Assembly: GCF_010500615.1 (NCBI RefSeq) | Contig: NZ_JAAGNX010000002.1 | Location: forward strand, 672,990-736,989 | Source: Oceanipulchritudo coccoides | GTDB taxonomy: Bacteria; Verrucomicrobiota; Verrucomicrobiia; Opitutales; Oceanipulchritudinaceae | Direction: 5' to 3' | DNA length: 64,000 nt | In this document: piece by piece, positions 6,048-40,026 of the stretch | Position numbering within the stretch: the first letter of the stretch is position 1 | How the letters are laid out: every line of letters begins with the position of its first letter | The notes under the pieces: generated by a model | What the model was told of the DNA's origin: nothing | The model's database searches: none | What the model saw: only the letters and a program-made list of their open reading frames with translations | Translations under genes and position numbers: made by a program

Positions 6048-6054
6048 CAAAGGT

Positions 6055-7964: not shown

Positions 7965-8022
7965 GCCCCGCGGCTTCCCGTGCAATTCTTGGACGTAGTG
8001 AGCGGGTTTATCCAGTACGGGT

Positions 8023-8646: not shown

Positions 8647-8672
8647 TTGAGATGTAGCTTGAATAGGATTCA

Positions 8673-9692: not shown

Positions 9693-9775
9693 TCATTCAA
9701 TTCGGGTATTCCTGGTAGTGAAATTTAACTACTTTCAAATATTGTCCTCGTTTTTTCCCATGAAAACATCAATTC

Positions 9776-10478: not shown

Positions 10479-11453
10479 TCATGATTGAGAAGTTGGTGCT
10501 GGCAATCCATCCGTGAGGGCCCGCACATGTTCAGCGACCGACTCGGCGAGCGCGTCCAGATGGTAGCCTCCCTCGAGAATTGAGACAACGCGTCCTTTCG
10601 CGAATATTTCTGCCTGCTGCAGAATCCACTGCGTGAGCAGATGATAATGATGGGATTCAAGCTCGATGTCGGCCAGCGGATCATGCCGATGGGCATCAAA
10701 GCCTGCGGAGATTAGAAACAGCTCGGGCTTGAACTCGCGCAGTTTTGGGAGGATATCCTCCTCAAGGACCTCCATGTAGTGTTCAATTGTGGATCCATTC
10801 GGAAACGGGCAATTAACGGTGAGGCCCGCGCCGGCCCGGGTGCCCGTTTCGTGAAATTCCCCACTGTGTGGATAGAGGGGTAGCTGGTGCAGGCTGCAGA
10901 ATAAAACAGACGGACTGCCAAAGAAGATGTCCTGGGTCCCATTGCCGTGATGAACATCCCAATCGATGATACAAATGCGTTCCAATCCAAAGGTTTCTTC
11001 AGCGTATTGGGCGGCAATCGCCACGTTGTTGAAGAGGCAGAATCCCATGGCTTTTTCCGTGCTGGCGTGATGCCCCGGGGGACGGGTCAGGCTAAAGGCG
11101 GCGGAGTAACCCTCATTGAAAACGGCATCAATGGCACCGATCGCGCCGCCGGCCGAGAGCAAGGCGGCCCGATAGGATTCTGAGCAAATGGCCGTCTCGC
11201 CCGAGTCGGCGAAGCTGCGCCCCTGCAGGCATGCCTCCTCGATGTAGTGCCGGTATTCAGGCGAATGGATTTTTTCAATCCATTTGGCCTTCACGGGCTC
11301 GGGTGTGTGCCAATGCAGTAATTTAGCGAAGGGGGCCTCTTCAAGAGCCGCCTTTGCTGAGATCAGCCGTTCCGGACGTTCCGGGTGATGAGCACCGGTA
11401 TCGTGAAGCAGGCAATCCGGATGATAGAAAATGGCAACTGGCCGTGGCATCAA
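10479..11453 (-). CDS. Histone deacetylase / AcuC family hydrolase
   Basis: 324 residues with the class II HDAC-like core: HHPERPERL near the N-terminus, RPPGHHAS, GFCLFNNVAIAA, IIDWDVHHGNGTQ (zinc-binding Asp/His) and LISAGFDAHRHDPL (second zinc Asp). Bacterial members deacetylate acetyl-lysine on proteins such as acetyl-CoA synthetase, or small amides such as acetylpolyamines. It lies just after a pseudopilin on the opposite strand and 57 bp from nrdJ on the same strand, so it may be read from nrdJ. The natural substrate is unknown. Confidence 0.9.
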   Translation of the reverse strand: MMPRPVAIFYHPDCLLHDTGAHHPERPERLISAKAALEEAPFAKLLHWHTPEPVKAKWIEKIHSPEYRHYIEEACLQGRSFADSGETAICSESYRAALLSAGGAIGAIDAVFNEGYSAAFSLTRPPGHHASTEKAMGFCLFNNVAIAAQYAEETFGLERICIIDWDVHHGNGTQDIFFGSPSVLFCSLHQLPLYPHSGEFHETGTRAGAGLTVNCPFPNGSTIEHYMEVLEEDILPKLREFKPELFLISAGFDAHRHDPLADIELESHHYHLLTQWILQQAEIFAKGRVVSILEGGYHLDALAESVAEHVRALTDGLPAPTSQS

Positions 11454-11510
11454 GTTCTATTGATGCACATCAGCCGCCAATTTCCAAGGCGGATTCGAGG
11501 AGCGCCGCGC

Positions 11511-14450
11511 TCAACTGCAGCCAAGGGAGGTACCGCAGTTGAGACAGCAGGCGCAAGTCCCCGTCACTTTCACCTTTGAGCTACCGCATTCGGAGCAGGT
11601 GAGGTGTCCTTCGGACTGGACGAGGAGCTCCATTTGTTCCTGGGAGAGCTGTCGCTCTGACCCTTCTTCTTCGCGCTCAATGGCCACGGAATCCGGAGCT
11701 TGATCCTCGAGGCCCTTTTCAGCCTGGGCCGCCGGGGACATTTGTTCCCGGTAGCCTTGAATATATTCCATTCCCAGCCAGCGGGCCAGGTAATCCATGA
11801 CGCTCTTGGCCATCGGAATGTCCGGATTGCGCGTCATGCCTTCCGGTTCAAAACGGATATGGGCAAATTTCTTAACAATTGTTTCCAGGGGAACACCATA
11901 CTGAAGGCACATGGAGAGGAGTGTGCCGATCGTGTCCATGAGGCCGTTGATCGTGCTGCCCGCTTTTGCCATCTGGATAAAAACTTCTCCGGGGGCACCG
12001 TCCTCGAAATTACCGACTGTCAGGTATCCCTTTGTTCCGGCCAGGTTAAACTTGTGCGTCAGGGATGCGCGCGTGTCAGGCAGACGACGGCGATAGGGTT
12101 CGGTAACCATCTGCACCTCGCGGCTCGCCTTGACCTCCTCCTGGACGTCCTTCTTGGTGCGCACAGGGGCGCTTCGCTTGGAACCGTCACGGTAAATTGC
12201 CACCCCCTTGATGCCTTTGCGCCATGCATGGAAATAGGTCTCGCGGATATCCTGGACAGTGGCCTCCTGAGGCATGTTGACGGTTTTGGAAATGCCGCCG
12301 GAAAGGAAGGGCTGGACAGCTGACATCATTTCGATGTGAGCCAGATGCGTCAGGACCCGTTTTCCTGAACCTGAGCGGAAGGCCGTGTCGAATACCTTGA
12401 AATGTTCCTCCTTCAAGCCACTTGTAATGGTTTCACCATTACTTTTAACCGGCTCAATTGTACCGTATTCCTTGATGTGGTTCAATATCCGTTCCCGCTC
12501 GGATAACTTGTAACCCAGGTTTTCCAGGGCGTGCGGAATCGACTTGATCGGAAGTTGCAGCATGCCACCTCCGGCGAGGGACTTGTAGGCAACCAGGCCG
12601 ATGGCCGGTTCAATACCTGTCGTGTCGCAATCCATCAGGAAGCCGATTGTTCCCGTGGGAGCCAGGACAGTGACTTGGGCATTGCGGAAACCGTGTTGCT
12701 TGCCTTGCTGCAGGGCTTGCTTCCACGTTGAGCGGGCGTAATTCAGCATTTCCGGATCGATAGACTCATCAATCTGCTCAAGCGCCTTGAGGTGCTTTTC
12801 AATGACGGCCAGCATCGAGTCGACGTTATCCTTGCCGGGAGGGTTGTCGCAACCGGCGTAGCGGGCATCCTTGTAGCCGGCAAAGGGTCCCTTGTGGCGG
12901 GCCAGTTCAGCGGATGTCCGGTAGGCGGTGCCAGTCATGACTGCGGTAATCAAGGCAGCCAGGGAGCGACCTTCGTCGGAGTCGTAGGAATGGCCGTACG
13001 ACATCAGGAGTGCCCCAAGGTTGGCGTATCCCAATCCCAGGGTACGGAACCAGTGGGAATTGTAGGTAATGGCTTCCGTCGGGTAGGAGGAACGGTCGAC
13101 AATGATTTCCTGGGCTATGATGAAAATCCGGCAGGCCCGGGCAAAGCGCTCGAAGTCAAATCCCTGCTCGGTGCGGAACTTGAGGAGGTTGATGCTGGCA
13201 AGGTTGCAGGCGGAATTGTCGAGAAAAAGGTATTCGCTGCAGGGGTTTGTACAGTTCTGGCGTCCTGATCCCTTACAGGTGTGCCACTCATGGATGGTAT
13301 CATCAAACTGCATGCCGGGATCACCACACATGTGCGTTCCTTCAGCAATCTGGGTCAGCAGGGCACCGGCGTTTTTCTTCTCACAGGGCTGACCATCTGT
13401 TACGCGCTTTGTCCACCAGTCGCCATTCTGTGATGCTGCATCCATGAATGCATCGGAGGCCCGGATGCTCAGGTTCTCATTCTGGAACTTGATCGAGCCA
13501 TAGGCATCGCCGTTGAATGACGGATCATAGCCCTCTTCAATCAGGGCCCATGCCTTGCGCTCCTCGACTTTCTTGGCCTCGATGAATTCCTCAATGTCCG
13601 GATGCCAGTCCTTCAAGGTGTTCATCTTGGCGGCCCGACGGGTCTTGCCACCGCTCTTGACGACGCCGGCCACCGAGTCGTAGACCGCCAGGAAGCTCAA
13701 GGGGCCACTCGGACGGCCACCACCGGAAAGTTTCTCACGGGTTGAGCGGATTGAGGAGAGGTCCGTCCCGCTTCCCGAACCAAACTTGAACAGCATGGCC
13801 TCAGCCTTTGCCAGGTGCATGATGGATTCGAGATCATCCTCCACATGCTGGATAAAACAGGCTGAACACTGAGGGTATTGGTATTGGTTTGGTGCGCGTT
13901 TGACGGCCCCCGCTTCCTGGTCCCAGAAGAAGTTGCCCTTGGCGGAGTCCTTCCCGACTTCATATTCATGGTACAAGCCAAGGTTGAACCATACGGGAGA
14001 ATTGAAGGCACCGGTCTGGTTGATGAGGAGCCACATCAGGTCTTCCTCGAAAATCTTAGCTTCGGTATCCGTCTTGAAATATCCGTCGGCGAGGCCCCAA
14101 TCCTTCAGCGTTTTCGCAACGCGTGTGACAACCTCCTTGAAGGAAGATTCGCGGCCACCTGTTTTGGGATCCTTTCCGCGGTCGATATCGCCGTAGAAAT
14201 ACTTTGAGGCAAGGATCTTGGTGGCCAGCTCGGAAAAGGGTTTCGGGACTTCAATCTCATCCTGTTCAAAGATGGCCTTCCCGTTCTCGTCCAGAATGCT
14301 TGCCGCGCGCTTTTCCCACTCGATTTCATCGAATGGATGGACCTCCGGCCTCGCAAAACTATGCTCTTTCAGCAGGACACTGGCCTCCTTTTCGGGCGTA
14401 ACTGGGTCGCTGGAGGTGGGTTTTGCGCTGGTGGAGGTGGCACTTTTCAT
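11511..14450 (-). CDS. nrdJ: Adenosylcobalamin-dependent (class II) ribonucleotide reductase
   Basis: 979 residues. It reduces ribonucleotides to deoxyribonucleotides independently of oxygen, using adenosylcobalamin. Visible motifs are CSACFIQHVEDD, FGSGSGTDLSSIRS, the active-site stretch NPCSEYLFLDNSACNLAS and ATGTIGFLMDCDTTGIEP. The C-terminus holds a redox Cys/zinc ribbon (CSECGSS and CACCLNCG) ending in GCS. The DTTGIEP and GGGMLQ segments match the long NrdJ form. It has no small subunit gene beside it, as expected for class II. Control by NrdR is suggested by boxes 59-111 bp upstream. Confidence 0.96.
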   Translation of the reverse strand: MKSATSTSAKPTSSDPVTPEKEASVLLKEHSFARPEVHPFDEIEWEKRAASILDENGKAIFEQDEIEVPKPFSELATKILASKYFYGDIDRGKDPKTGGRESSFKEVVTRVAKTLKDWGLADGYFKTDTEAKIFEEDLMWLLINQTGAFNSPVWFNLGLYHEYEVGKDSAKGNFFWDQEAGAVKRAPNQYQYPQCSACFIQHVEDDLESIMHLAKAEAMLFKFGSGSGTDLSSIRSTREKLSGGGRPSGPLSFLAVYDSVAGVVKSGGKTRRAAKMNTLKDWHPDIEEFIEAKKVEERKAWALIEEGYDPSFNGDAYGSIKFQNENLSIRASDAFMDAASQNGDWWTKRVTDGQPCEKKNAGALLTQIAEGTHMCGDPGMQFDDTIHEWHTCKGSGRQNCTNPCSEYLFLDNSACNLASINLLKFRTEQGFDFERFARACRIFIIAQEIIVDRSSYPTEAITYNSHWFRTLGLGYANLGALLMSYGHSYDSDEGRSLAALITAVMTGTAYRTSAELARHKGPFAGYKDARYAGCDNPPGKDNVDSMLAVIEKHLKALEQIDESIDPEMLNYARSTWKQALQQGKQHGFRNAQVTVLAPTGTIGFLMDCDTTGIEPAIGLVAYKSLAGGGMLQLPIKSIPHALENLGYKLSERERILNHIKEYGTIEPVKSNGETITSGLKEEHFKVFDTAFRSGSGKRVLTHLAHIEMMSAVQPFLSGGISKTVNMPQEATVQDIRETYFHAWRKGIKGVAIYRDGSKRSAPVRTKKDVQEEVKASREVQMVTEPYRRRLPDTRASLTHKFNLAGTKGYLTVGNFEDGAPGEVFIQMAKAGSTINGLMDTIGTLLSMCLQYGVPLETIVKKFAHIRFEPEGMTRNPDIPMAKSVMDYLARWLGMEYIQGYREQMSPAAQAEKGLEDQAPDSVAIEREEEGSERQLSQEQMELLVQSEGHLTCSECGSSKVKVTGTCACCLNCGTSLGCS

Positions 14451-27131: not shown

Positions 27132-28823
27132 TTACTCGGTGTCTTCCTCGCCCGTGCTGTAGCGCATGATCTCGTTGAGGGAGGTCCGTCCGAGGGCGAG
27201 CTGGTCCCAGCCGCTCATCTGGAGGGTTGTCATCCCGTGCTTGAGGGCCTCCTGCCGGATTTCACCGGCGGAGAGCTTTTGGACAATCAGTTCGTGGATT
27301 GTATCGTCCACACGCAATATCTCAAAGATGCCGACACGGCCCCGATAGCCAAGTCCCCGGCAAGCCTCACAGCCGATGGGCTCGAGGATCTTGGCGGCAA
27401 GCCGCTCCGGGGTAGGCTCGAGATTGAGGGCGTCGAGACATTCACGCAAATAGTGCTCCGTATAATTCCCCTGTTGTGCGCATTTCGCGCAGAGTCGCCG
27501 AACGAGCCGCTGGGCCAGAATCATTTCCACGGCTGAGGCGATGAGGAACGGCTCGATCTCCATGTCGATGAGGCGTGTCAGCGCGCCGGGGGCGTCATTC
27601 GTGTGGAGCGTACTGAGGACAAGGTGACCCGTCAGGGCTGCTCGGATGGCGATGTCCGCGGTTTCCGAATCCCGGACTTCCCCGACCATGATGACATCCG
27701 GATCCTGACGCAGGATATGCCGCAGCGCGCTGGCAAAGGTGAAGCCAATTTCGCTGTGTACCTGGGTCTGGTTAACCCCTTCAACCTCATATTCCACCGG
27801 ATCCTCGACTGTGATGATGCGCCGGCCGGGCGAATTAATCTGCCGGATAAAGGCCGTGAGTGAGGTGGACTTACCGGAACCTGTCGGACCGGTGACAAGG
27901 ATGATGCCGTAGGGCAGGTCAAGGACCCGCTTGATGCGGTTCTGGTCGTTCTTGAGCATGCCCAGCTCTTCCATCGAAAGGGGCTGGTTCTTCTGGTTGA
28001 GAAGACGCAATGAAACGCTCTCGCCATACATGGTCGGCATTGTGGAGATACGGATGTCCAGCTCGGTATTCTTGGCCTTGTAGACAATACGTCCATCCTG
28101 CGGGCGGCGCTTCTCGGAAATGTTGAGTTTCGCCATGATCTTGAGACGAGAGATGATCGCCCCCTGGTATCGGATCAAATTATCCGGCACGCGGATCGGG
28201 ACCAGTTCACCATCAATCCTGTAGCGAATTTGTAATGACTCCTTGAGGGGCTCAAAATGAATATCCGTTGCCCGGTCGTCAACAGCCTTGGCGATGACCT
28301 CGTTCACAAAGCGGATCAAGGCGGCGTTTTCATCTTCCTCGGCTTCTTCCAGTCGGCCGGAATCCTCGGTGGCGATATCCGATTCACTAAGTGAATCCGC
28401 ACCGACCCCGTAGCGTTGTGTAATGGTATCACTGATACGATTTGCCGGCCCCAGATGCCATTTGGGTTCCTTGCCGCTGACCGCAAGGATCCATTCAGTC
28501 ATTTCTTCCGAGGGGGGCCAGACCGTGACCAGTTCCAGGAAAAGAGGATCCTCATGTTCGCCCAGAAGCGGGAGGCATTGATATTCATGCATCACGCGGA
28601 GGGGAAGAATCTCCGCAGCATCATCCGGAACCTCAAAGTCTTCCAGGACGGCCAAGTCGCAATCCTTGGCCAGATCCACAAGGACCTCCATCTCGGATTT
28701 GCGCTTGAGCTGGGCAAGGAGGGGAATGCGGTTCTGGCGCGGTGCCTCCTCAAGCATTTGCCGTTGATCGGGTTCGAGAAATCCGAGGAAAGAGAGGGAA
28801 CTGTCGGTGCTTTGGGAGGACAT
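27132..28823 (-). CDS. gspE: Type II secretion ATPase GspE
   Basis: 563 residues. This hexameric cytoplasmic ATPase drives the pseudopilus. The N-terminal MshEN-like domain (about 10-150) precedes the motor domain with Walker [10 protein letters not shown], the Asp box TVEDPVEYE, Walker B with [12 protein letters not shown], and the His box [10 protein letters not shown] zinc-binding insertion has CAKC and CEAC. A TTG four codons upstream is in frame, and the ATG at 28823 is preferred. The zinc finger supports GspE/PilB over retraction ATPases. Confidence 0.93.
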
Positions 28824-28839
28824 GTTTAAAATCAATTTG

Positions 28840-29394
28840 TCATTGGGGAGGGCGGATTACCCGCCGTCTCGCAGTGTTGGGGGAGCTAGAGCGACTGGCC
28901 CGCGAAGTGGGCCGAATTACACGACGGCGAACGGGTTGCTTGGTGGTCGGCGTTGTAGCAGCCTTTGCTGCAGGCTGAGCGGTGGCCTGGGCAGTTTGCA
29001 CCGGCAGTGTGCGGTCAGAGGTTTCAACGAGGGCCAGACTCAAGGTTTTCCCGGCAACGTCGATAGCGAGTTCATTCGACTCGCGATCAAATGACAGGAT
29101 ACGCATATCCTTTTCATTGGCATCCTGCTTGGTGACCCATGAGCCCTTGCGTTCGCGCACATCGTACAGGTTGTAATAATACGTTCCGCTCAATTGGTAT
29201 ACACCGCGGAATTCATACTGGTTGGATGTGGCTGGCGGAGTGGCCGGCTGACCGGGTGTGCCCGGTGGCTGGAACCCCGGCGGCAGGAAGGGCGAATTGG
29301 ACACCAGCGACAAGGTATTCTCCGTCTCCGCCATGACCGGAATGGAGAGCAGGAGTGTCATCAAAGTGAAACCAACTGGAAATTGAAAACGCAT
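28840..29394 (-). CDS. Putative GspC/PilP-like periplasmic linker of the secretion system
   Basis: 184 residues. A signal peptide or anchor ([14 protein letters not shown]) is followed by a Pro-rich linker, a small beta-rich domain ([20 protein letters not shown], then [20 protein letters not shown]) and an Arg/Ser-rich tail. The beta domain resembles the HR domain of GspC and the core of PilP, which contact the secretin. No overall similarity is certain. The position between gspD and gspE (6 bp after gspD, 16 bp before gspE), with no other gspC in the operon, is the main support. Confidence 0.55.
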
Positions 29395-29400
29395 GAATGA

Positions 29401-31641
29401 TCACGGCTTGTTGCGGCGTGGGACCTCGTGCCCTTCGGGAGTATCCTCGTCCGGTTCACGGAAGGTGCCTTCCTTCAAGTAGTCACGCACTTCCTTGTGG
29501 CCCTCGATACCATCGATCAGCCTGTTGGCATCCTCGTCGGCATCCTCAGCGTTGCGAATGATTGTCGGGCGAATAAAGATGAGCAGCTCGGTACGTTCGC
29601 TTTCGGTTTGGGTCCGGCTGAACAAGTCGCCCAGGAGAGGCAACTTCCCGAGGATCGCCATGCGGGAATTGGTTTCGCGGCTGGTCAGCGATTGCAACCC
29701 ACCCAGTGCGATCAGCCCCTGATCTTTTACGCTGACATAGGAGTTGGCTGTCCTTGTCCCAATGATTGGCTGTGGGTTGCCGTTGACGAGCACCGTTCCG
29801 GTAATGCTTTGGTTCTGCTGTTCAATCTCAAGCTGGACAATCCCGTCTGAGCCAATCAACGGAGTCACTTTCAACTCAAGTTTGATATCACGATATTGAA
29901 CCTGCTCACGTGTGCTGAGTCCGGATGATAAATCACTGGTGGTGGTTCCGGTAATGACCGGTTGTTCCTGCCCGACAGAGACTGTTGCTTCCTTGTTATG
30001 CGTCGTGACAATGGTCGGTGCCGAGAGGACCTTTGCATTACCATTTTCAGCAATCGAGTTAAGGATCACTTCAAAGGAAAAGGCCTCATCCGGTCCCCAT
30101 GAAATACCGTCTCCAAAGGTCACTCCATAAAAGTTACCCGGAATGAATTGAGATTCTGAAGTCGGGTCATTCAAATCCACATCAAATCCTGTCCCGGAAT
30201 AACTGAATCCGAGGGAATCAATTCCGCGGGTATCGTCGTCACTCAGTGTGACCTCGGCAATGACGACCTCGATGCGTACCTGGGCGAGCAATGTATCGAT
30301 TTCACCAATCAGCTGTTCGAGATACTCGAGGTCGCTGTGGGTGCCGTTGGCGACAATCGTGTTGGCCCGCTCGTCCGGGACAATGGTCAGGAAACTGGAG
30401 AACTGCAGGTTTGAAGCGTCCGCCCGTACATTGGCGGCCGCCTGGTTGAGTTGCCGCAGTTGCGAGGCGCGTTCTCGTGCTGCCTGCGCGGCGCCATCGT
30501 TGCCGCTTCCGGTTTCCATCCGTACCTCCCGCTGGCCGCTGACAATCTGGTCGATAATACTGACGACCTCGGTCGCTTCCGCATAGCGAATGGAATACAC
30601 CTTTGTCGCGGTGTTCGGAGCCACGCTGATATCCAGCCGCTCAATGAGGCTGGTCACCAGTTCCTCATTTGAAGGATGCGTAAAGATGAGCAGCTGGTTG
30701 GTTCGTTCGTCCGCCTCGACGGAAGTATTATTCTCCAGTTGGCGCTTGAGTGGTCCGGCGATGATTGTCTGGAGCCGGCGGACAACATCCTGCGCCTCGA
30801 TGTTCTGCAATTCGAAGAAGAGCATCTTGGTCTTCAATTCGGCCGGCTTGTCGAGGACGGGGAGGAGCCGTTCAATCCGCTGGAGATTGATCAGGGCATC
30901 CGTAATCAGGATGAAGTTGCTCTTGGCAAAACTGATCGGGCTTCCCTGTGACATGAGCGGCTGGAGGATCGTGGAAGCTTCCTCAGGAGTCAGGAAATCC
31001 AGCTCGAAAATCTTCTCATAAATGGTCTGGCTGGGAATGGCATCGAGGGTCGATCCTTCCCAGACGCGGGGAACCTGCGCATTGACTATTGAGCTGGGGA
31101 CCGCCTTGAGAAAGGCCGTGCCGACATTGGTGATGGCGACGCCATTCAGGGAGAGCAAACTCTCAATCGCCGTGATGGCCTCACCGCGGGTCAGCGCCTC
31201 CTGGCTGTAGAATGTGATTTTGACTGCGGGAAGTGTCTGTTGGCGCAGGATGGGCTTGCCCGTGAAATTCTCCAGCATCTCCAAGACCTCGTTGGTGCCC
31301 ATTTCCGGAATGCGGATCAGGCCGACGACTTCCTTCATTCGCGGATCTTCCGTCTCGATGATTTGAGACGGTCGTTGCAGAAGGACATCCTCGGACAGTG
31401 CCTGTGCCGACGTCTGTACCTGTGCCTTCGGTGCCGGAGGGACCCGGCGTGTCGGGATGGTCGTCGGCGGAGGCGGCGGAGTGAAATTCGGCGGCGGTGG
31501 TGGCAGAAAGTCCGGATTGCTCAGGAGCGGAGACGGTTTAGGGCCCGCGTTTTCTTCCTGTGCCAATGCTGGAAGTGCGACCACAATCGCGAGGGTAGCC
31601 ACAGCTAAGCGTTTCATGCAGGAATGGGATAGGTTACTCAT
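29401..31641 (-). CDS. gspD: Type II secretion outer-membrane secretin GspD
   Basis: 746 residues. It forms the outer-membrane channel. A signal peptide (MKRLAVATLAIVVALPALA, after eight extra residues) and a Pro-rich linker precede N0-N3 periplasmic domains (about 100-440) and the C-terminal secretin domain with EVTLSDDDTRGIDSLG, VSVGQEQPVITGTT and IALGGLQSLTSRETNSR. N1-N3 carry KVYSIRYAEATEVVSIID. The ATG at 31641 is chosen because AAGAGG stands seven bases before it, while the internal ATG at 31617 has no Shine-Dalgarno. It overlaps gspM by 8 bp. Confidence 0.93.
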   Translation of the reverse strand: MSNLSHSCMKRLAVATLAIVVALPALAQEENAGPKPSPLLSNPDFLPPPPPNFTPPPPPTTIPTRRVPPAPKAQVQTSAQALSEDVLLQRPSQIIETEDPRMKEVVGLIRIPEMGTNEVLEMLENFTGKPILRQQTLPAVKITFYSQEALTRGEAITAIESLLSLNGVAITNVGTAFLKAVPSSIVNAQVPRVWEGSTLDAIPSQTIYEKIFELDFLTPEEASTILQPLMSQGSPISFAKSNFILITDALINLQRIERLLPVLDKPAELKTKMLFFELQNIEAQDVVRRLQTIIAGPLKRQLENNTSVEADERTNQLLIFTHPSNEELVTSLIERLDISVAPNTATKVYSIRYAEATEVVSIIDQIVSGQREVRMETGSGNDGAAQAARERASQLRQLNQAAANVRADASNLQFSSFLTIVPDERANTIVANGTHSDLEYLEQLIGEIDTLLAQVRIEVVIAEVTLSDDDTRGIDSLGFSYSGTGFDVDLNDPTSESQFIPGNFYGVTFGDGISWGPDEAFSFEVILNSIAENGNAKVLSAPTIVTTHNKEATVSVGQEQPVITGTTTSDLSSGLSTREQVQYRDIKLELKVTPLIGSDGIVQLEIEQQNQSITGTVLVNGNPQPIIGTRTANSYVSVKDQGLIALGGLQSLTSRETNSRMAILGKLPLLGDLFSRTQTESERTELLIFIRPTIIRNAEDADEDANRLIDGIEGHKEVRDYLKEGTFREPDEDTPEGHEVPRRNKP

Positions 31642-32179
31642 TTAAAGCCTCTTCTTTCAATTCAAAGGAAACCAGTTCGAAAACAGCATCGAGAAAGCGT
31701 GGATCACGCTTGTTGGCGGAGATCTGGAAATCCGACAGTGCAATGTAGGGAGAATGGGTCTTCACCGCCTGATCAAAGCGGATCAGCTCGGCGACCCGTC
31801 CGCGCTTGATGGTCAGGCGGACATTATGGAAACTGAACAGTTGTGACTCCTGCGTGGAAGGCGTGCTGATATCAAAGCTGGAGACTTCGTTCTCCCGGGC
31901 AATTGAGTCCAGCCGGCCGACCAGCTGGGCTGCGGAAAAGGTCTTGTTGCCGTCCAGTCCCTGCCGGGCTGCTTCCAGCAGCACCTGAGCTTCCTCAGAC
32001 TGGGCAAGGGTTTTTTCAAATGATTCCAGGAGTTGGCTGTTCAGGGAAAATGTGGTCCAGGTGGTTCGGAAGCTCTCGATAATACCAAGGAGCCAGACCA
32101 GGAGAACAACCCAGATGATCAGCGCGACAAGATAGCGCTCACGAATGGAGAGGGTGTTATATAATTGTCGAATCAACAT
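31634..32179 (-). CDS. gspM: GspM/PilO-like secretion platform protein
   Basis: 181 residues. A short cytoplasmic N-terminus is followed by one membrane helix (YLVALIIWVVLLVWLLGII, about 15-33), a coiled-coil-like stretch (about 40-75) and a ferredoxin-like periplasmic domain (about 90-170). This is the layout of GspM, which pairs with GspL in the inner membrane. Sequence similarity is weak and the assignment rests on layout and order (after gspL, before gspD). The start lies 3 bp after the gspL stop. Confidence 0.7.
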   Translation of the reverse strand: MLIRQLYNTLSIRERYLVALIIWVVLLVWLLGIIESFRTTWTTFSLNSQLLESFEKTLAQSEEAQVLLEAARQGLDGNKTFSAAQLVGRLDSIARENEVSSFDISTPSTQESQLFSFHNVRLTIKRGRVAELIRFDQAVKTHSPYIALSDFQISANKRDPRFLDAVFELVSFELKEEALNE

Positions 32180-32182
32180 GGC

Positions 32183-33433
32183 TTATTCCCCTCCTTCCTC
32201 AGTTTCCGGTGTTTCCTCGTCTTCATCTGGAATGATAAATCCGCCCTCTGGCTCCTCCGGGAGCGAGGAAAAGCTTATCGTCAGTTCAAAGCTCGTCTGG
32301 TTGTTGCGCGTTTGCGAATTATTCTCCACGGAATCAACAAAGGCGAGCTGATTGATCGAATCGGCAAACGCATTGACGGGCGTCACGCCCTCCGAGGACT
32401 TTCCTTCCACTTCGAGGCTGTCAAAGGCCCGCGAACGGACTTTCTCAAAATAGATCGAATCAGGCCGGAGCGGATTGATGGCCTCCATGAGCAGGAAAGG
32501 ATTTAAATCCTCCTCGGTGGACTGGGTGAGACGCTGCGCAAGGGTCAGTTTGTTTTCAACGCGGACAGCGCCCGGCTCCAGCTCGCGGAGTGTGCGCTCG
32601 CGGAAGATATTGAAAGTGGAGAGGCCAAAGTTGGCTACCTGAAGAAACAGGAGCACGATCGCCGTGACAGCCGCCACGCGGAGGCTTTTCCAGATAAAGG
32701 AGCTGCGACGGCGGACGATGCGCTCAGTGTTGGCAAAGGCTTCATCCCGGATGTCGGCCGCCCATAACTCAGCCTCAGACAATGGGAGCAGGCGCTCCTC
32801 GACCTTTCCCGGGTCTTCCGGCTGCAAGAACCGGTGCCGGAAGAGAAGGGAATCATCTGAAAGAATATCAAAGCCCTCGCCGAGCCAGAGGCCCTCCTCC
32901 AGCGAATAGCCTGAAGCATTAATGGACCCGGCCATCGTCTCCCGGGCTTCCAGCAGGCTGTCATCAGTCAGCAGGTCACCCATCACCTTTCGGGAAATGA
33001 CCTTTTCCGGAACGGGGTTGCCGGGAACCAGATAGAGGGCGGAAATGACTCCATTCTGGGAAAGAAAGCGGATTGTCGGGGACGAAACTGTTTCCCCGAA
33101 AAAGCTGATAAAGCCCGGAAAGAGCTGCAGATATTGCTCGATATCCTCGAATCCAAGCCGTTTCAGGCGCGCCTTTGCGGTCGCGTAAACAAACGCATGG
33201 GGAGAATTGACGGACTGGAAAAAGCCCCATGCCAACTGTTCCACCGGGAATGGGGCGTTGCCTTCCAGCGAGAGCTCAATGAAGGCCCGCTTATCTTCCC
33301 ATGAAAGCTCCCCGGGAAGATCCACTTTCCGGGTAAAGAAGGCGTCCGCGGGGACCAGGCCCACGCGTTTCTCGGGTAGCTTGTCCCTCAATTGGGAGAG
33401 CCACCGGGACGCTATGTTCGGAAGATTGCTCAT
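32183..33433 (-). CDS. gspL: GspL/PilM-like secretion platform protein
   Basis: 416 residues. A cytoplasmic actin-like domain (about 20-260, RVGLVPADAFFTRKVDLPGE and FISFFGETVSS) is followed by a membrane helix at about 267-288 (VAAVTAIVLLFLQVANFGLS) and a periplasmic domain with an acidic C-terminus (DEDEETPETEEGGE). In E. coli-type systems GspL recruits GspE through its cytoplasmic domain and binds GspM. The call rests on this layout and the K-L-M order. The acidic tail is unusual. Confidence 0.75.
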   Translation of the reverse strand: MSNLPNIASRWLSQLRDKLPEKRVGLVPADAFFTRKVDLPGELSWEDKRAFIELSLEGNAPFPVEQLAWGFFQSVNSPHAFVYATAKARLKRLGFEDIEQYLQLFPGFISFFGETVSSPTIRFLSQNGVISALYLVPGNPVPEKVISRKVMGDLLTDDSLLEARETMAGSINASGYSLEEGLWLGEGFDILSDDSLLFRHRFLQPEDPGKVEERLLPLSEAELWAADIRDEAFANTERIVRRRSSFIWKSLRVAAVTAIVLLFLQVANFGLSTFNIFRERTLRELEPGAVRVENKLTLAQRLTQSTEEDLNPFLLMEAINPLRPDSIYFEKVRSRAFDSLEVEGKSSEGVTPVNAFADSINQLAFVDSVENNSQTRNNQTSFELTISFSSLPEEPEGGFIIPDEDEETPETEEGGE

Positions 33434-33480
33434 GTTGGACCTAAAGGCTTATTAAACGGGTTGGTGAAAAAGGGTGTCGA

Positions 33481-34611
33481 TCAAAATTTACGATTCTCGA
33501 CGATACGAATAAAGCGAAACGGATAGCCCAGCTCCGCTGAGATAGCTGGCGCTGTGCGCGCAGATCCGCGGGACCGGTTTCTCTGGGCCGCGGACGAGTC
33601 TGGTGCGGCGTCTTCTTCGGGGGAATTGGTTTCCGCTTGATTCCGGTTTTGTGATGAATCAGCGGCCCCGGCATCTGAGCCGGACCAGGAAACAAGGGCT
33701 TCCAGGTCAAATCGGGCATCGCCCCGGCTTGCCCTCACCTTGACGCGGAGTAGTTCAATCCCGGTTGATACGTCGCTGGTCTCGCCGAGGGCTGCCTCCT
33801 CGAGGTTCCGTATCAGCCGGTCGTCCTCAGTCCCGGAAATCCCGTCTATGCCATTTTTGTAGTCGGCGAGGGAATAGGGGTCGAGGAAGCCGCTTTCAGC
33901 CAGAAAATCCAAGACGAGTCCCGAGGCCTGGTTGATATTCGTCTTGCCGCTGTGATAAAGGGAGACCGCATTTTTGAATGAGGCCCAGTCGCTTGTGGGG
34001 CTCCCCGCTTCATCGAAAAAGAGCTCATTAAAGGGTTGGATCAGGCGAAATTCATCCCATGAGACGATAGCGGAGTTGGCTGGCTTGTATGGCGGGTCCA
34101 TGTCCTCGTAATCTTCGCCGTCAAAGCCGTTCAGTCGCCGGGCATCGTCCTCGTCGGTCCAGTCAATCAGTCCATCGGCCAATGCCTGCGCTTCCGGGAG
34201 GTCAAAGCCCATGACATCGAAGAGGATGATCAGGTCGTCGTATTCAAGGCTTTCGAGGCCCAGTTTGGCGCTCTCATCCTCAAAGGAGACCGAGACGGAG
34301 GAGGCGTGCGCGGGAGTGAAGCCAACCTGCTGGAGCGGGTTGGACCAACCTTGGGCAGGGCCCCAGAGGGCACCCTCGATCTCGCGGTACTGGTTGATCA
34401 CGGCGAGGGAAATTTCCAGGGCGGAATAGGCATCCACGCGAAGATCGTCTCGGTTATGAAAGAGCCCGTAGTATTTGATCTTGCTCGTTGCTTCCTCGAG
34501 AAAGGCGACAACGATAAACGTCAGAAGAACCACAAATACCAGAACCAGAACGGTGATGGATCCGTTCTTTGGAGCGCCTTTTTGGCCAAATTGTGTGGGA
34601 TGAAAAGCCAT
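33481..34611 (-). CDS. gspK: Minor pseudopilin GspK
   Basis: About 376 residues, much longer than the other pseudopilins, as GspK is. The leader ends in KNG, followed by SITVLVLVFVVLLTFIVVAF. The mature position 5 is Leu, not Glu, as in GspK proteins that cap the pseudopilus tip. The SAM-like domain (EYDDLIILFDVMGFDLPEAQAL) and GLIDWTDEDDARRLNG are family features. The ATG at 34611 follows the gspJ stop by one base. A longer start at 34677 would overlap gspJ. Confidence 0.85.
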   Translation of the reverse strand: MAFHPTQFGQKGAPKNGSITVLVLVFVVLLTFIVVAFLEEATSKIKYYGLFHNRDDLRVDAYSALEISLAVINQYREIEGALWGPAQGWSNPLQQVGFTPAHASSVSVSFEDESAKLGLESLEYDDLIILFDVMGFDLPEAQALADGLIDWTDEDDARRLNGFDGEDYEDMDPPYKPANSAIVSWDEFRLIQPFNELFFDEAGSPTSDWASFKNAVSLYHSGKTNINQASGLVLDFLAESGFLDPYSLADYKNGIDGISGTEDDRLIRNLEEAALGETSDVSTGIELLRVKVRASRGDARFDLEALVSWSGSDAGAADSSQNRNQAETNSPEEDAAPDSSAAQRNRSRGSARTAPAISAELGYPFRFIRIVENRKF

Positions 34612-34612
34612 T

Positions 34613-35287
34613 TTAGAAAAGGGGGAGCTCGAGGGATTTCTGGGGAACGAAAATGGACCGGATACGGTCGTCTTCATCCGGATAACTGAAGGTCAGGCGA
34701 AGGTAATTCGGTAGAAGGAAAATGTCGTCATCTTCCTCAATGGGTTGCTCGGTAATCTCCCATTCATCGTCCTCCAATTCATAATAAGCGTACTCAATTT
34801 TGGATACAAAGCTGGAGACAGGTGTTCGTTTCAAATCCCGTACTTCCTCGATTTCCTCCGCATCGAAGGCAGAGTACCAGAGGATGGAAAGGCCGGTGTC
34901 CTCCTCAAAGTGAATGTAGGCCATGATGGCCGGCAGCGGCCTGCCTTCCCGCACAAAGAGGGCAGGGGCCTCGGCCTGACGGAAATGAAGAAGCGGATCA
35001 TCGAATTCCGACCAGCCCGGTGGCCGTGCCCATTCAACCGGCATTTGTTGCTCCTGGTCGCCTGAAGCGGGTGTGCTTTCAGATGCCTCAAAGGCGTTGT
35101 TGAGGAAGAGCACCACACCGTCAACATGCTGGTCGAAGAAATCGTCATCGGTGCGGTTAAGCCAGAGGTTGCTGAGGGCAAACAAGTGAAAGGAGAGGAG
35201 CGTCATGAAAGTGGCGATGATCCCTATCGTCACGATCATCTCGATCAAGGTGAGTCCCGACTGGTTACTGCGGTGTAGTGTTTTCAT
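34613..35287 (-). CDS. gspJ: Minor pseudopilin GspJ
   Basis: 224 residues. The leader MKTLHRSNQSG precedes LTLIEMIVTIGIIATFM with Glu at mature position 5. The globular part is beta-rich and acidic near the C-terminus. GspI, J and K form the tip complex of the pseudopilus. It is assigned by its place between gspI and gspK and by length (GspJ is typically about 200 residues). Two bases separate it from gspI. Confidence 0.8.
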   Translation of the reverse strand: MKTLHRSNQSGLTLIEMIVTIGIIATFMTLLSFHLFALSNLWLNRTDDDFFDQHVDGVVLFLNNAFEASESTPASGDQEQQMPVEWARPPGWSEFDDPLLHFRQAEAPALFVREGRPLPAIMAYIHFEEDTGLSILWYSAFDAEEIEEVRDLKRTPVSSFVSKIEYAYYELEDDEWEITEQPIEEDDDIFLLPNYLRLTFSYPDEDDRIRSIFVPQKSLELPLF

Positions 35288-35289
35288 GG

Positions 35290-35763
35290 CTACCAGTCCC
35301 TCCCAAACGCTTCGTCCTCGATATTCCTACGGATATCGTCGAGCAAGGCGCTTCGCTCGAAGGAGTCTCCCCAGGTCGGTCGAAGCAGGTAAAGCCGCTC
35401 GGAATAGGGAATCGGTTCCCCGTCGGGATTTTCAAATTCAATCTCAAGCAGGAGCTGGAAAAGATCGACCGTTTCGGTGGGTTCAATCTCGGCCGACCAT
35501 TCAGCTTCACCAAGATTCAGGGTGGAAATTTCCCCGCCATCCTCAACTTCATCAGGATCGGCAATCTGAATGATCTGGCTGCGGACAAAACGGACATCCT
35601 TCTGGTAATCCGATTCCGACTCCAGCTTTTCCAGTGTGAGAAGGACGTTGAAGAACGTCTCCGTGAGCATAAAAAACGCAATGCCCGCGATGGCAATCGC
35701 GATGACTGCCTCGATCAGGGAAAACCCGGAATGGGAAGATTCTTTATGGATTGCGTGAGTCAT
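35290..35763 (-). CDS. gspI: Minor pseudopilin GspI
   Basis: 157 residues. The leader MTHAIHKESSHSG precedes FSLIEAVIAIAIAGIAFFML, with Glu at mature position 5. This is the I-type helix rich in Ala and Ile. The ATG at 35763 overlaps the end of gspH by 20 bp. A longer in-frame start at 35823 would add a hydrophobic segment before the prepilin helix and is unlikely. Confidence 0.8.
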   Translation of the reverse strand: MTHAIHKESSHSGFSLIEAVIAIAIAGIAFFMLTETFFNVLLTLEKLESESDYQKDVRFVRSQIIQIADPDEVEDGGEISTLNLGEAEWSAEIEPTETVDLFQLLLEIEFENPDGEPIPYSERLYLLRPTWGDSFERSALLDDIRRNIEDEAFGRDW

Positions 35764-36280
35764 CGATGACGATGTCTGAAAAAGGATCAAAACGTAGGGT
35801 GTAGGGCCGCCCATCCTGATCAATTATGACCTGAAAAGGGGTTGAAGAACGGTCGGGCCGAAAAGTCACGGTTTCGATCTCCACTGTATCGGGGGAAGCA
35901 TTACGGTTAAGTCCCTCCTCAGGCAGCAGTTGTTCAAATTCAACATCAAGCTCATTGGCAGAACTTTCCAGACCGGTTGAAAAGTCCTTGAGGGTTTGCC
36001 CGCTCTCGCCGGTCAGTAGAAATGCGACCGACTCTTCGTCGAAGCGCAACTGCACGGGCTCCTTCAGATAAGCCGCCTGAAAGCGGGCCTCCCTGACGGC
36101 CTTGCGCAGGATCCGGTCAACCGGTTCTTCGCCGAGTCCGCGGAAGATGGCTTCCGCATTCACCACGACCAGGCCACCCACGAGGGCGACAAGGGCGATG
36201 ACAATTATCAACTCAATGAGCGTGAACCCGTGCCTCACGGGCTTACCAGTTGCCAATATTGTCCGCTTCAGATTGTGCAT
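35744..36280 (-). CDS. gspH: Minor pseudopilin GspH
   Basis: About 178 residues from the ATG at 36280. The prepilin motif RHG-FTLIELIIVIALVALVGG has the cleavage site after Gly and Glu at mature position 5. The C-terminal domain is beta-rich, as in GspH/FimT. The start is uncertain. The ATG at 36280 overlaps gspG by 38 bp, while a GTG at 36238, five bases after the gspG stop, would give the short family-like leader VRHG. ATGs further upstream overlap gspG more. Confidence 0.8.
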   Translation of the reverse strand: MHNLKRTILATGKPVRHGFTLIELIIVIALVALVGGLVVVNAEAIFRGLGEEPVDRILRKAVREARFQAAYLKEPVQLRFDEESVAFLLTGESGQTLKDFSTGLESSANELDVEFEQLLPEEGLNRNASPDTVEIETVTFRPDRSSTPFQVIIDQDGRPYTLRFDPFSDIVIDDSRNP

Positions 36281-36695
36281 CCGGACCGAGGGACCATAAA
36301 TCGTAGCCATCGGTATTTTTTGTTCCGGGGTACTTGTACTGGTAAGCGTTGCCCCATGGATCTTCAGGAAGTTTTTCAATGTAGGGACCTTTCCATTTGC
36401 CCTGTTTCGAAGAGGGCTGATTGAGCAAGGCCATCAGGCCGCCGTCTTCATTCGTCGGATAGGAACCCGTGTCGATGCGATATTTGAGAAGAGGGGCCTT
36501 GAGGGCATTGTCGACAAACTGCTTGGCGACATCCTCTTGTGCCCCGCCGAACAAGTTTCCGATCCGTCCGATCAGAAGGGTTCCGACAATCGCAATGAGC
36601 GCGATCACAATAAGCATCTCCACAAGGGAAAAACCGGCTTTCAATTTCTTGAGGGAAGTAGGGTTATTGGGAACAAACTTCATATTTCCGTGCAT
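36243..36695 (-). CDS. gspG: Major pseudopilin GspG
   Basis: About 150 residues. The leader (…TSLKKLKAG) is followed by FSLVEMLIVIALIAIVGTLL. The C-terminal half contains KYRIDTGSYPTNEDGGL, LPEDPWGNAYQYKYPG and YDLWSLGPDAQ, the calcium-binding loop signature of GspG. It polymerises into the pseudopilus. It is the first gene of the secretion operon. ATGs at 36695 and 36683 are both possible, and neither has a clear Shine-Dalgarno. Confidence 0.93.
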   Translation of the reverse strand: MHGNMKFVPNNPTSLKKLKAGFSLVEMLIVIALIAIVGTLLIGRIGNLFGGAQEDVAKQFVDNALKAPLLKYRIDTGSYPTNEDGGLMALLNQPSSKQGKWKGPYIEKLPEDPWGNAYQYKYPGTKNTDGYDLWSLGPDAQSEADNIGNW

Positions 36696-36757
36696 AGGTT
36701 TAACCAATAGATGGTTGGTAAAGTTGCAAACCCGAATGGCAGCCTTTGGAAAAGGTC

Positions 36758-37900
36758 TTATCCATCCTCCAGAATAAGGCGGATCAGATCTCTTGGATCC
36801 TCTTCCTTGTGCAGCCCTTGTAGCCGCTCACGAATTTTCCGGTAAGAGTCCTTGGAGCGCATCCATTCGAGAAGGATATTGCCCAGGTCTTCCGGGCGCC
36901 GGAGCATCCGTGCGGCCTCCTTTTCTAGAAAATAGCGGACTGTGCAACGCTCCTGCGGCATCAGACCACCCAGCGAATCATAAATAACCGGGCAACCAAA
37001 GTGCAGGGCCTCCATGGTCGTGTTGGCTCCGCCCCGTGTAATCACGGTATCTGAAATTTGGAGGAACTGTGACATTCGTGAACTGTAGCCTTCAATGTGC
37101 ATCTTCAGCTGGGGGTTCGACTTGGCCCAGTTCCTGACCCGGTCCAAAATCTTCCTGTTGCGGCCGCAGACCGCTATGACCTGGACCCGGTCAGCTTGTT
37201 TCAGGAGTTCCTTGAGAAAGCGCAGGTGATGGTTGGCACCGTATCCACCGGTGGCCAGGAAGACGGTGAACCGGTCCTGTTCCAGACCCAGCTGCTGGCG
37301 TAGTGAGATCCTTTCACCGGCGGAGAGACGCTTCTCAAATGCCTCCGGGGGAAGCAGTTTGTGGAAGATGCTTGTCCGCTCCTCCGGCATGCCGAGCTTC
37401 ACAGCGGTTTGCTGGGCATCCTGAGTGCGGGCGATAAAGTGATCCGCGCGCGGGTTCACCCAGTTGCGGCTGTATCCATAACCGCCCGAAAATTCACCGC
37501 AGTAGGTCACACAGCGGACCGAATTACCGAGAACATTCCTGGCATCCTCGAAGTAGCCACGGTTTGTTGAATCGTGTACACTGAGGACAAGGTCCGGGTG
37601 GTAGGATTCCAACAAGCTCCGGTAGTATTTTCCGCCAAATGAAACGGTCCGGCTGTTGGAAAAGATGAACAGCTCAACAATGAAGAAATAGATGTTGTGG
37701 AGGAATGGGCAGTACTTGTGGATCAGGTTGTAGAACCAGACCCCGAATCGCCCCAGCAGGGAGGCGTTTTCAATGATCTGCTCAATGCGGACAGTAACAG
37801 CCTCGCCGTACAGTTGCTTGACCCAATTCTCAAAGGCCTTGGCCCGCATGTCGTGGCCGCTGCCAGTACTCGAGGAGAGGACAAGGACCCGCGTTCTCAT
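36758..37900 (-). CDS. MGDG-synthase/MurG-like glycosyltransferase (GT28)
   Basis: 380 residues with a GT-B fold. The N-terminal domain begins RVLVLSSSTGSGHDMRAKAF, like the MGDG synthase N-domain, whose GxGH loop binds the acceptor. The C-terminal domain has VITRGGANTTMEALHFGCPVI, the GT28 nucleotide-sugar site. It probably adds a sugar to a diacylglycerol or other lipid at the inner face of the membrane. It overlaps the ketoacyl synthase by 4 bp and closes a three-gene cassette with it and the ACP-dehydratase fusion. MurG itself is less likely because of the MGDG-type N-domain. Confidence 0.8.
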   Translation of the reverse strand: MRTRVLVLSSSTGSGHDMRAKAFENWVKQLYGEAVTVRIEQIIENASLLGRFGVWFYNLIHKYCPFLHNIYFFIVELFIFSNSRTVSFGGKYYRSLLESYHPDLVLSVHDSTNRGYFEDARNVLGNSVRCVTYCGEFSGGYGYSRNWVNPRADHFIARTQDAQQTAVKLGMPEERTSIFHKLLPPEAFEKRLSAGERISLRQQLGLEQDRFTVFLATGGYGANHHLRFLKELLKQADRVQVIAVCGRNRKILDRVRNWAKSNPQLKMHIEGYSSRMSQFLQISDTVITRGGANTTMEALHFGCPVIYDSLGGLMPQERCTVRYFLEKEAARMLRRPEDLGNILLEWMRSKDSYRKIRERLQGLHKEEDPRDLIRLILEDG

Positions 37901-39156
37901 GGTTGCTCAATCGCGAGGACCACATTCACACCACCAAAGCCACTGCTATTGGAAAGCAGCCGTTTAGGTGCGGAATCCAGTGATTCCCTAAGGATATTCA
38001 ATCCCTGAGCTTCCGGATCCAGACTCGTGATATGTGCGCTTCCTGGAGTGAAGCCTTGTTGCATTGCAAGCAGGCAGAAGCTCGCTTCCATGATGCTTGA
38101 AAGCGAGAGTGCGTGACCTGTGAGTGCTTTGGTACTGCTGATCGCCGGCCCCCCAGAGCTCCCGAAGACCGATTTCAAGGCGCGACATTCGGAGATGTCA
38201 CCGGCCAGGGTGGAGGTGGCATGGGCATTGATGTAATCGACAGTTTCCTTGTCCCAGCCGGCCTGACCAAGGGCAAGACGGATAGCGTTGGCCAGGCCTT
38301 CCCCGTCGGGATGGGAAGCGGCAACGTGATAACCATCGGTTGCTTGTCCCCAACCGGCGAAGCGCCCCAGAATTGGTGCTCCCCGGCGAAGGGCGATGGA
38401 TTCCTCTTCAAGGATGAGGGCAACCGCACCCCCTGTCCCAACAAAGCCATCCCTGTTCTTGTCGAATGGCCGGGAGGCCGTATCCGGATCGGGATTCACG
38501 GACAAGACACGCATTCCGGCAAAGGGAACGATGGTGTCCAGGGTAAAGTCTTCCGCCCCGACCACGACCATGCGGTCCTGTCGGTTGAGGGCTATTTCAT
38601 CATGGGCAAAGCCCAATGCGTGACCGCTGGAGGCGCAGGCAGAGACAAAACCACACGTCGATCCGCGAATCTTGTAGGCCGCCGCCAAGTTGAAATTCAG
38701 GGTTCCGGCAATTGAGGCGACAATCCCCAGGGGAGAGCAGCGGAGTGGACCAAACCGTTTCATGCGGTCCAGATGAAAGTGCGTCATGGCCGCCGAACCG
38801 GATGAAGCGGTGTAGAGGCCAGTCCGTTCATTGGATAAATCACCCTTTTCGAGCCCGGCATCCCCGATCGCCCGCTTCAGGGCAAAGTGGGCATACAGGG
38901 CGTTCGGCGAGAGTCCTTTCAACTGCTCCAGCCTGAAGTGAATGTCATCCGGAAAGGTCCAGTCCTCCGGATCTGTTGAGGCTGTGTCAAAACCCGGCAC
39001 CGGGGCCGCGACATGAATCGGGATTTTCTCGTCTGCCTCAAACGGCTGATAGGCGACGCACCCGTGCTTCAGTTCCTTGAGCCGTTTGCCCACGGCTTCC
39101 TTGTCGTGACCGAGACAGGTAACAAGACCTAAACCGGTGACAACAACATTTCGCAT
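37897..39156 (-). CDS. Beta-ketoacyl-ACP synthase (FabF/FabB-like)
   Basis: 419 residues with a thiolase fold. The active-site Cys is in VSACASSGHALGFA, and the two His are in NAHATSTLAGD and KALTGHALSLSS. The N-terminus RNVVVTGLGLVTCLGHD and C-terminal SNSSGFGGVNVVLAI are typical of KAS I/II. It elongates an acyl chain on ACP by decarboxylative Claisen condensation. It sits between an ACP-dehydratase fusion and a glycosyltransferase, which suggests a specialised fatty-acid or polyene lipid rather than bulk synthesis. Confidence 0.9.
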   Translation of the reverse strand: MRNVVVTGLGLVTCLGHDKEAVGKRLKELKHGCVAYQPFEADEKIPIHVAAPVPGFDTASTDPEDWTFPDDIHFRLEQLKGLSPNALYAHFALKRAIGDAGLEKGDLSNERTGLYTASSGSAAMTHFHLDRMKRFGPLRCSPLGIVASIAGTLNFNLAAAYKIRGSTCGFVSACASSGHALGFAHDEIALNRQDRMVVVGAEDFTLDTIVPFAGMRVLSVNPDPDTASRPFDKNRDGFVGTGGAVALILEEESIALRRGAPILGRFAGWGQATDGYHVAASHPDGEGLANAIRLALGQAGWDKETVDYINAHATSTLAGDISECRALKSVFGSSGGPAISSTKALTGHALSLSSIMEASFCLLAMQQGFTPGSAHITSLDPEAQGLNILRESLDSAPKRLLSNSSGFGGVNVVLAIEQP

Positions 39157-39180
39157 GACAAAGCGGCCCCCAGGCCGTTT

Positions 39181-40026
39181 TTACTGCTCGACCCCAGCTT
39201 CGTTGGAAGACTCCAACTCGAAGGTCAGGGAAATTTCCTCAGCTTTGGCCACACGGGCTCCCTGACAGAGAATTGTGCCTTCAAACTGGGCCAATGGTGC
39301 ATGCACTTTCTTGAGGGCGACTTTCATCTGCATGGTGTCCTGCGGCTTGCACATCTTGTGACAGCGTACGCCATCGCAGGAGACAAAATAGATTGATTCC
39401 GGTTTGATCCGGCCACCAAAGGCATCGCTGTCGGTCTTCAGCATGAAGAGGACCGCCAACTGGCCGAGGGCCTCCAGCATAAGCGAGGCCGGGAAGACCG
39501 GATTCCCCTTGAAATGGCCTTCCAGAAAAACTTCTTCGCCGGAAATGTGGTAACTTCCATCAGCTTCCGTCCCATTTATCCGTGCCTCCTGCAGGAAGAG
39601 GAAAGGGGCTTGGTGCGGCATGGTTGCCACCACTTGCTCGAAATTGAAGATATTCTTGTTCGTCGGAACGGGCAGGCCTTTGATCTTGGCATCCAGATAG
39701 CCTTTAATGTCGCCCAAGGTCCGCAGATTGCGCAGTTCCTCGTTTTCAATCTGGATACTCAGGGTCTCCTCAACAAGAATGACAATCTCGACCATGAGGA
39801 GAGAATCAATACCCAGGTCCTCCAACAGACGGGTCTGGTCCTTGCCCTCCCGGATGACCGGCCTGACGTCGGGCTCAACGAATCTTTCGATAATACCGAG
39901 GACAATTGCCGGAAGTAGATCTGGATTGCGGGTTTCGTTAAATTCCAGTGCTGCTTCAATCGCACTTTCAGGACAGCGTTTGAGGGACTCGCGCAGTTCC
40001 TCTTGATTTAGCTTGGTTGTCGCCAT
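39181..40026 (-). CDS. Acyl carrier protein fused to a FabZ/FabA-like hotdog dehydratase
   Basis: 281 residues. After about 30 helical residues, an ACP domain (about 38-113) carries LGIDSLLMVEI with the phosphopantetheine Ser75. A linker (IKGLPVPTNKN) leads to a hotdog domain (about 123-270) with PHQAPFLFLQEA and GHFKGNPVFPASLMLEALGQ, keeping the FabZ-type active-site His and the helix Glu. It would carry its own substrate for dehydration, in step with the ketoacyl synthase encoded 24 bp downstream. Known fusions of ACP and hotdog domains occur in polyketide and polyunsaturated fatty acid synthases. A stand-alone ACP-FabZ is uncommon. Confidence 0.8.
   Translation of the reverse strand: MATTKLNQEELRESLKRCPESAIEAALEFNETRNPDLLPAIVLGIIERFVEPDVRPVIREGKDQTRLLEDLGIDSLLMVEIVILVEETLSIQIENEELRNLRTLGDIKGYLDAKIKGLPVPTNKNIFNFEQVVATMPHQAPFLFLQEARINGTEADGSYHISGEEVFLEGHFKGNPVFPASLMLEALGQLAVLFMLKTDSDAFGGRIKPESIYFVSCDGVRCHKMCKPQDTMQMKVALKKVHAPLAQFEGTILCQGARVAKAEEISLTFELESSNEAGVEQ

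Follow-up and report, generated by a model that had tools for sequence, protein, structure and literature searches.

What do three closely packed genes for a fused ACP-dehydratase, a beta-ketoacyl-ACP synthase (KS) and a GT28-type lipid glycosyltransferase (GT28) make in Oceanipulchritudo coccoides, and do they work together? They lie in a stretch of 64,000 nucleotides of its genome, here called the window. An earlier interpretation of the window, the sequence-only reading, had suggested a functional unit that could make an unsaturated or hydroxylated acyl chain and join it to a sugar lipid or decorate it with one, and had likened the genes to aryl-polyene, polyunsaturated-lipid and glycolipid loci. 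Comparison with related genomes indicates that this reading had caught only a fragment of a larger conserved gene set.

The three open reading frames are all on the minus strand at the coordinates given by the sequence-only reading (Table 1), which had described them as same-strand genes with overlaps or short gaps. The TAA stop of the fusion is separated from the ATG of the KS by 24 bp, and the KS and GT28 frames share an ATGA, which suggests translational coupling of these two genes. The domain calls were also correct, as Pfam returned PP-binding and FabA-like domains for the fusion, the N and C ketoacyl-synt domains for the KS, and MGDG_synth with Glyco_tran_28_C for the glycosyltransferase. 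Upstream lies a divergent VanZ-like gene, whose cluster was met only in loci of the same family. Downstream, type II secretion pseudopilin genes follow on the strand of the cassette. A shared operon with them was rejected, since they adjoin the cassette only in loci of its own genus (L050, L052), and they are regarded as neighbourhood only because elsewhere in the family it is usually a GT4 gene that comes after the cassette.

Table 1. Positions of the cassette genes, their domains and the SPT-clade partner gene (window positions unless marked C2)
Feature	Position	Strand	Remarks
ACP-dehydratase fusion	39181..40026	-	281 aa
N-terminal helical extension of fusion			about residues 8-34
ACP domain of fusion	39676..39924	-	about residues 35-117, phosphopantetheine Ser75; model helices 35-116
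FabZ-type hot-dog dehydratase domain of fusion	39223..39645	-	about residues 128-268, His171/Glu185
Beta-ketoacyl-ACP synthase, FabB/KAS I-like	37897..39156	-	419 aa; Cys174-His312-His348 with Lys343
KS/GT28 stop/start overlap	37897..37900	-	4 bp, ATGA
GT28-type lipid glycosyltransferase	36758..37900	-	380 aa; MGDG synthase N-domain and GT28 C-domain
SPT-clade alpha-oxoamine synthase, source genome	C2:369127-370278

In the fusion protein, Pfam scores 30 bits for PF00550 (PP-binding, residues 64-111) and 71 bits for PF07977 (FabA-like). The dehydratase is of the FabZ type, not the FabA type, by sequence and predicted fold: the NCBIfam FabZ model reaches 74 bits (residues 129-263) against 23-25 bits for FabA-type models, and in an AlphaFold2 model of the fusion (pLDDT 85) the top Foldseek matches of this domain are FabZ without exception, at a target-normalised TM-score of about 0.9. 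The hot-dog fold retains its catalytic His and Glu, and both residues, as well as D74-S75-L76 of the ACP, are invariant in an alignment of 15 proteins. Arg-Cys at R17-C18 in the conserved N-terminal helical extension is likewise invariant in 15/15 aligned proteins. Membership of the ACP in the AcpR group was rejected, as it is closer to the housekeeping AcpP of its own genome (38% identity) than to AcpR of E. coli BL21 (21%). If an ACP tethered permanently to its dehydratase serves a single lipid pathway, it would offer a simple model of acyl-pool separation.

Among solved structures the KS matches KAS I best (260 bits), with KAS II behind it at 206 bits, and C174, H312, K343 and H348, corresponding to the Cys-His-His triad and Lys of KAS I/II, are invariant among 12 aligned proteins. 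The GT28 enzyme passes the Pfam MGDG_synth cut-off of 25 bits barely, at 26.8 bits, and among its relatives in the PDB it scores 69.6 bits with processive diacylglycerol beta-glucosyltransferase and 68.9 bits with MGD1. Elsewhere in the source genome (3.52 Mb, 52 contigs, 99% complete) there are a housekeeping ACP-FabF, a FabA-FabB pair and further FabZ domains, which marks the cassette as an additional dedicated set and not the main fatty-acid synthase.

The sequence-only reading would have failed, as chance adjacency, had homologues been scattered in related genomes. Strong matches to the ACP-dehydratase occur in 56/89 relatives, mostly fused and in several as adjacent separate ACP and dehydratase genes, and in a 288-genome sample of the phylum they are confined to the same class (33 genomes). 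A scan of named genomes gave 80 loci, with titles of Opitutia type (Opitutales, Opitutaceae, Opitutae etc.) or unresolved Verrucomicrobia/bacterium. No scattering was found among them: the KS directly follows the ACP-dehydratase in 69/77 readable loci, GT28 follows in 51/58, and a gene for an SDR reductase is present in 34/58. Marking of loci with HMMs revealed the larger cluster, in which the recurrent order at many Opitutia loci is (GT4<) ACP-DH> KS> SDR> GT28> GT4> GT> with SPT<. In an Ereboglobus strain the order is ACP-DH>KS>SDR>GT28 (L120). Within 8.5 kb, 21 of 44 named loci also have an SPT-like gene, invariably on the opposite strand. A compact form, GT28< / ACP> KS> SDR> GT4> / SPT<, is found at L109, L205 and L206, whose three genomes belong to two families. 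In five further families (f2, f3, f4, f19 and f22) the ACP-dehydratase is usually beside TrpS, followed by GT4 and often SPT, with the KS elsewhere; the KS adjoins the SDR in the four f22 genomes. The earlier statement that there was no reductase or acyltransferase holds within the cassette, but in many relatives an SDR reductase is encoded between KS and GT28.

The genes also co-occur. Counts are given as both/first only/second only/neither, and the Fisher p-values count every genome or family as an independent case, ignoring kinship. Over 89 genomes, the counts were 53/3/4/29 for ACP-dehydratase and KS (p 7e-16), 43/5/4/37 for GT28 and SPT (p 4e-15) and 32/4/15/38 for SDR and SPT (p 9e-9); by family, GT28 and SPT gave 13/0/2/13 over 28 families (p 3e-6). 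Synteny and co-occurrence together led us to reject chance adjacency, and the proposal of a functional unit is borne out among relatives.

In the source genome this gene set is split over three loci, the partners of the cassette being found at two others, and SPT and SDR are physically unlinked to the cassette in its own genus. GT4 and an SPT-like gene are adjacent at C2:367.85-370.30 kb (L190), and the SDR counterpart, the single match at E<=1e-15 with 38% identity, is at C2:396.2-397.1 kb. In a phylogenetic tree, the Opitutia SPT-like clade (UFBoot 100) joins, at UFBoot 99, the SPTs of E. coli BL21, S. wittichii and Sphingobacterium and is separate from Kbl, ThAOS and BioF, while the node uniting it with the proteobacterial SPTs has a support of only 81. 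The SPT motif G[SA]RxxNG is present in the clade, including the C2 enzyme of the source genome, whose second alpha-oxoamine synthase groups with Kbl. The best solved relative of the SPT-like enzyme is the Sphingobacterium SPT (304 bits), followed by Kbl (229), BioF (200) and cysteate acyltransferase (187). Against the NCBIfam SPT model it scores 390 of 640 bits, under the equivalog cut-off. For the SDR, 3-ketodihydrosphingosine reductase (KDSR) is the second-best NCBIfam model, at 112 bits against a cut-off of 400 bits and with other SDR models comparable. As a reference for ceramide synthase (CerS) we took YghO, since this acyltransferase gene lies near spt in E. coli BL21. A YghO-type enzyme was found in only 2/89 genomes and was undetected in the other 87 and in the source genome, and a canonical ceramide is therefore not supported.

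These results are consistent with a split pathway of sphingoid or glycosphingolipid type in the class Opitutia, of which the cassette would provide the acyl supply and the first glycosylation. The direct basis of this reading is which genes are present, their conserved order and intact active sites, the placement in the SPT clade and co-occurrence, from which we infer every catalytic step, the substrates and the product. First, the dedicated ACP would bear a growing acyl chain, which the KS would extend and the ACP-tethered FabZ-type dehydratase would dehydrate at the 3-hydroxyacyl stage, with keto- and enoyl-reduction presumably left to housekeeping fatty-acid synthase enzymes. Second, the acyl-ACP would be passed to the SPT-clade enzyme, whose condensation partner would be an amino acid (most likely serine) and whose product would be a 3-keto long-chain base. 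Third, the KDSR-like SDR would reduce the ketone, and sugars would be added by GT28 and by the GT4 encoded beside SPT. We put the probability of this sphingoid-type reading at about 0.5, because a YghO-type CerS was undetected in 87 of the 89 genomes, because f17, f23 and part of f21 have the ACP-dehydratase-KS set but neither SPT nor GT28, and because some MAGs lack SPT alone of the whole set. More tentatively, the private type II module of Opitutia, consisting of a self-docked ACP-dehydratase and a KAS I-like KS, might replace the supply by acyl-CoA or acyl-ACP synthetase and feed a distinct SPT clade, and a GT28 of the diacylglycerol-glycosyltransferase kind might glycosylate the base without a ceramide synthase of the proteobacterial type. 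Such a route is not described in the papers searched, and none of that literature links Opitutia to sphingolipids or describes the cluster of the cassette.

A less likely but serious rival is that ACP, dehydratase and KS form instead a dedicated elongation module for a long or special chain of lipid A or another LPS-type lipid, with SPT and the glycosyltransferases as later additions nearby. Rhizobial AcpXL, FabZXL and FabFXL, which have the same three activities and make a very long lipid A chain from acpXL-fabZXL-fabFXL, are a real precedent (PMC5613085). Lipid A is likely made in the source genome, since it has a fused gene of LpxC-FabZ type (459-aa frame) with a FabZ domain. ACP, dehydratase and KS are retained with neither SPT nor GT28 in f17, in f23 and in three of the four f21 genomes sampled, GT9 heptosyltransferase-like genes come next in some families, and in f17 DH-KS immediately precedes waaA (Kdo transferase). 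This waaA link is, however, seen in one family only. An LpxXL/LpxL-type acyltransferase was unrecognised among the inspected conserved neighbours of the cluster; neighbour genes were obtained by ORF picking and clustering, so that an absent neighbour means one unrecognised at that locus. The lipid A explanation also leaves unexplained why GT28, from diacylglycerol-glycosyltransferase-like families, tracks SPT (p 4e-15, kinship ignored).

That same kinship of GT28, whose best characterised relatives use diacylglycerol, could point to a glycosyl-diacylglycerol or other glycerol-based glycolipid, with a special acyl chain glycosylated by GT28 and GT4 and with SPT as a separate neighbouring pathway. 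Four genomes agree with it, as G004, G005, G011 and G015 (L060, L053, L089, L054) have ACP-dehydratase, KS, GT28 and GT4 with SPT undetected, each in an assembly of many contigs. This explanation, also a serious rival, is nonetheless rather improbable: GT28 and SPT occur together in 13 families and GT28 alone in none, a glycerol acyltransferase was unrecognised in the cluster, and a keto-base accounts better for the SDR. An aryl-polyene-like or polyunsaturated product of KS/dehydratase iteration is very improbable, for although ACP, KS and dehydratase (with SDR) amount to minimal polyene chemistry and genome mining found two aryl-polyene clusters in ant-gut Opitutales (PMC8277422) that may or may not be the cluster of the cassette, there is only one KS, which is FabB-like, the conserved SPT and lipid glycosyltransferases would be left unexplained, and none of the defining partners (second KS/chain-length factor, AMP-ligase, ammonia-lyase, LolA and exporter) was recognised among the inspected conserved neighbours. 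In the product guess of the sequence-only reading, the link to a sugar lipid stands, but the polyene and polyunsaturated-lipid comparison is not supported, and the conserved neighbours point to sphingolipid-type chemistry instead.

Spt-like genes have been reported in many phyla, often without partner genes beside them, and Spt-like proteins in 22 Verrucomicrobiota MAGs from the Black Sea (PMC11334938). If the conserved set ties the Opitutia SPT clade to its own acyl supply and lipid glycosyltransferases, it would name the enzymes and give markers for producers. The set makes the question of sphingolipids in Verrucomicrobiota directly testable in cultured Opitutaceae.

Among known systems, aryl-polyene clusters have an ACP, a KS and a FabZ-like dehydratase in common with the cassette, whereas most of their defining genes are unseen in its inspected neighbours. 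The rhizobial acpXL-fabZXL-fabF1XL-fabF2XL-lpxXL set is likewise a module of dedicated ACP, FabZ and KS outside the housekeeping fatty-acid synthase (PMC5613085). In the cassette, by contrast, ACP and dehydratase are fused, the KS is FabB-like, LpxXL is unrecognised among the inspected neighbours, and the linkage is to SPT and GT28, not to a lipid A acyltransferase. With MGDG synthase and the UgtP-type processive diacylglycerol glucosyltransferases, the cassette enzyme shares the GT28 fold and the MGDG_synth N-domain, but it reaches only about 100 of the 500 bits of the NCBIfam diglucosyl-DAG synthase model, and its acceptor is predicted from this family score. Proteobacterial SPTs favour a dedicated, specialised ACP (PMC9386255), and the sphingolipid set of Caulobacter comprises aasR, cerR, acpR, spt and cerS (PMC11324152). 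The Opitutia set shares an SPT-clade enzyme and a specialised ACP with this operon of Rhodobacteria (aasR-cerR-acpR-spt with cerS, in Caulobacter and E. coli BL21). It differs in that its ACP is adjoined by a KS and a tethered dehydratase where Proteobacteria use an acyl-ACP synthetase, in that its SDR is KDSR-like where CerR is of the epimerase type, and in the YghO-type CerS, not found in the source genome or in 87 of the 89 genomes. Glycosylated sphingolipids, the predicted product in Opitutia, exist in Caulobacter. In Pseudomonas, C24-C28 sphinganines arise from a PKS and an alpha-oxoamine synthase (PMC12134224). SgaAB of Pseudomonas fluorescens MYb115 has the kind of ketosynthase-based chain supply, captured by an alpha-oxoamine synthase, that is proposed for Opitutia (PMC12134224), but SgaA is a type I PKS, whereas the Opitutia ACP-dehydratase and KS are small separate proteins accompanied by lipid glycosyltransferases.

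In the window, the cassette is immediately followed downstream by a type II secretion/pseudopilin operon that encodes GspG, more pseudopilins, a secretin and a GspE-like ATPase, and relatives of the same genus (loci L050 and L052) retain this operon in the same place. Family f17, which keeps ACP, dehydratase and ketosynthase (KS) without SPT or GT28, has waaA (Kdo transferase) immediately after the dehydratase and KS genes (L097, L101, L103 and L106); its ACP gene is found at a separate site, adjoining an ABC transporter operon (L098, L102, L104 and L107). Several genomes harbor a paralogous ACP-KS pair without dehydratase (L207, L208 and L209), the ACP of which has an N-terminal extension of the same kind, and an AMP-ligase-like gene lies close to the pair in L208.

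Features in and outside the window
Feature	Location	Strand
Type II secretion/pseudopilin operon	Window 27132-36707	minus
Further KS-ACP set	L018 (G000:C3:743000-762000) 6529-10292	minus
Stf0-type sulfotransferase gene	L190 (G000:C2) 11045-12544	plus
PKS-like/alpha-oxoamine synthase fusion protein, 1349 aa	L219 (G064:C1:1568000-1580000) 5942-9991	minus

The window's genome (G000) also carries a further KS-ACP set, followed by FAD-dependent oxidoreductase-like and methyltransferase-like genes, and a 3387-aa open frame (G000:C1:1092376-1098744) with three NRPS/PKS-like carrier-protein domains. Two genes downstream of its own SPT lies an Stf0-type sulfotransferase gene, and a sulfated lipid would be conceivable.

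In the Opitutia genome G064, a single protein has an alpha-oxoamine synthase at its C-terminus and also contains a KS region like that of type I PKSs and a stretch resembling an ACP; its gene adjoins a YghO-like (ceramide-synthase-type) gene. This arrangement resembles an SgaAB-type sphinganine system in fused form.
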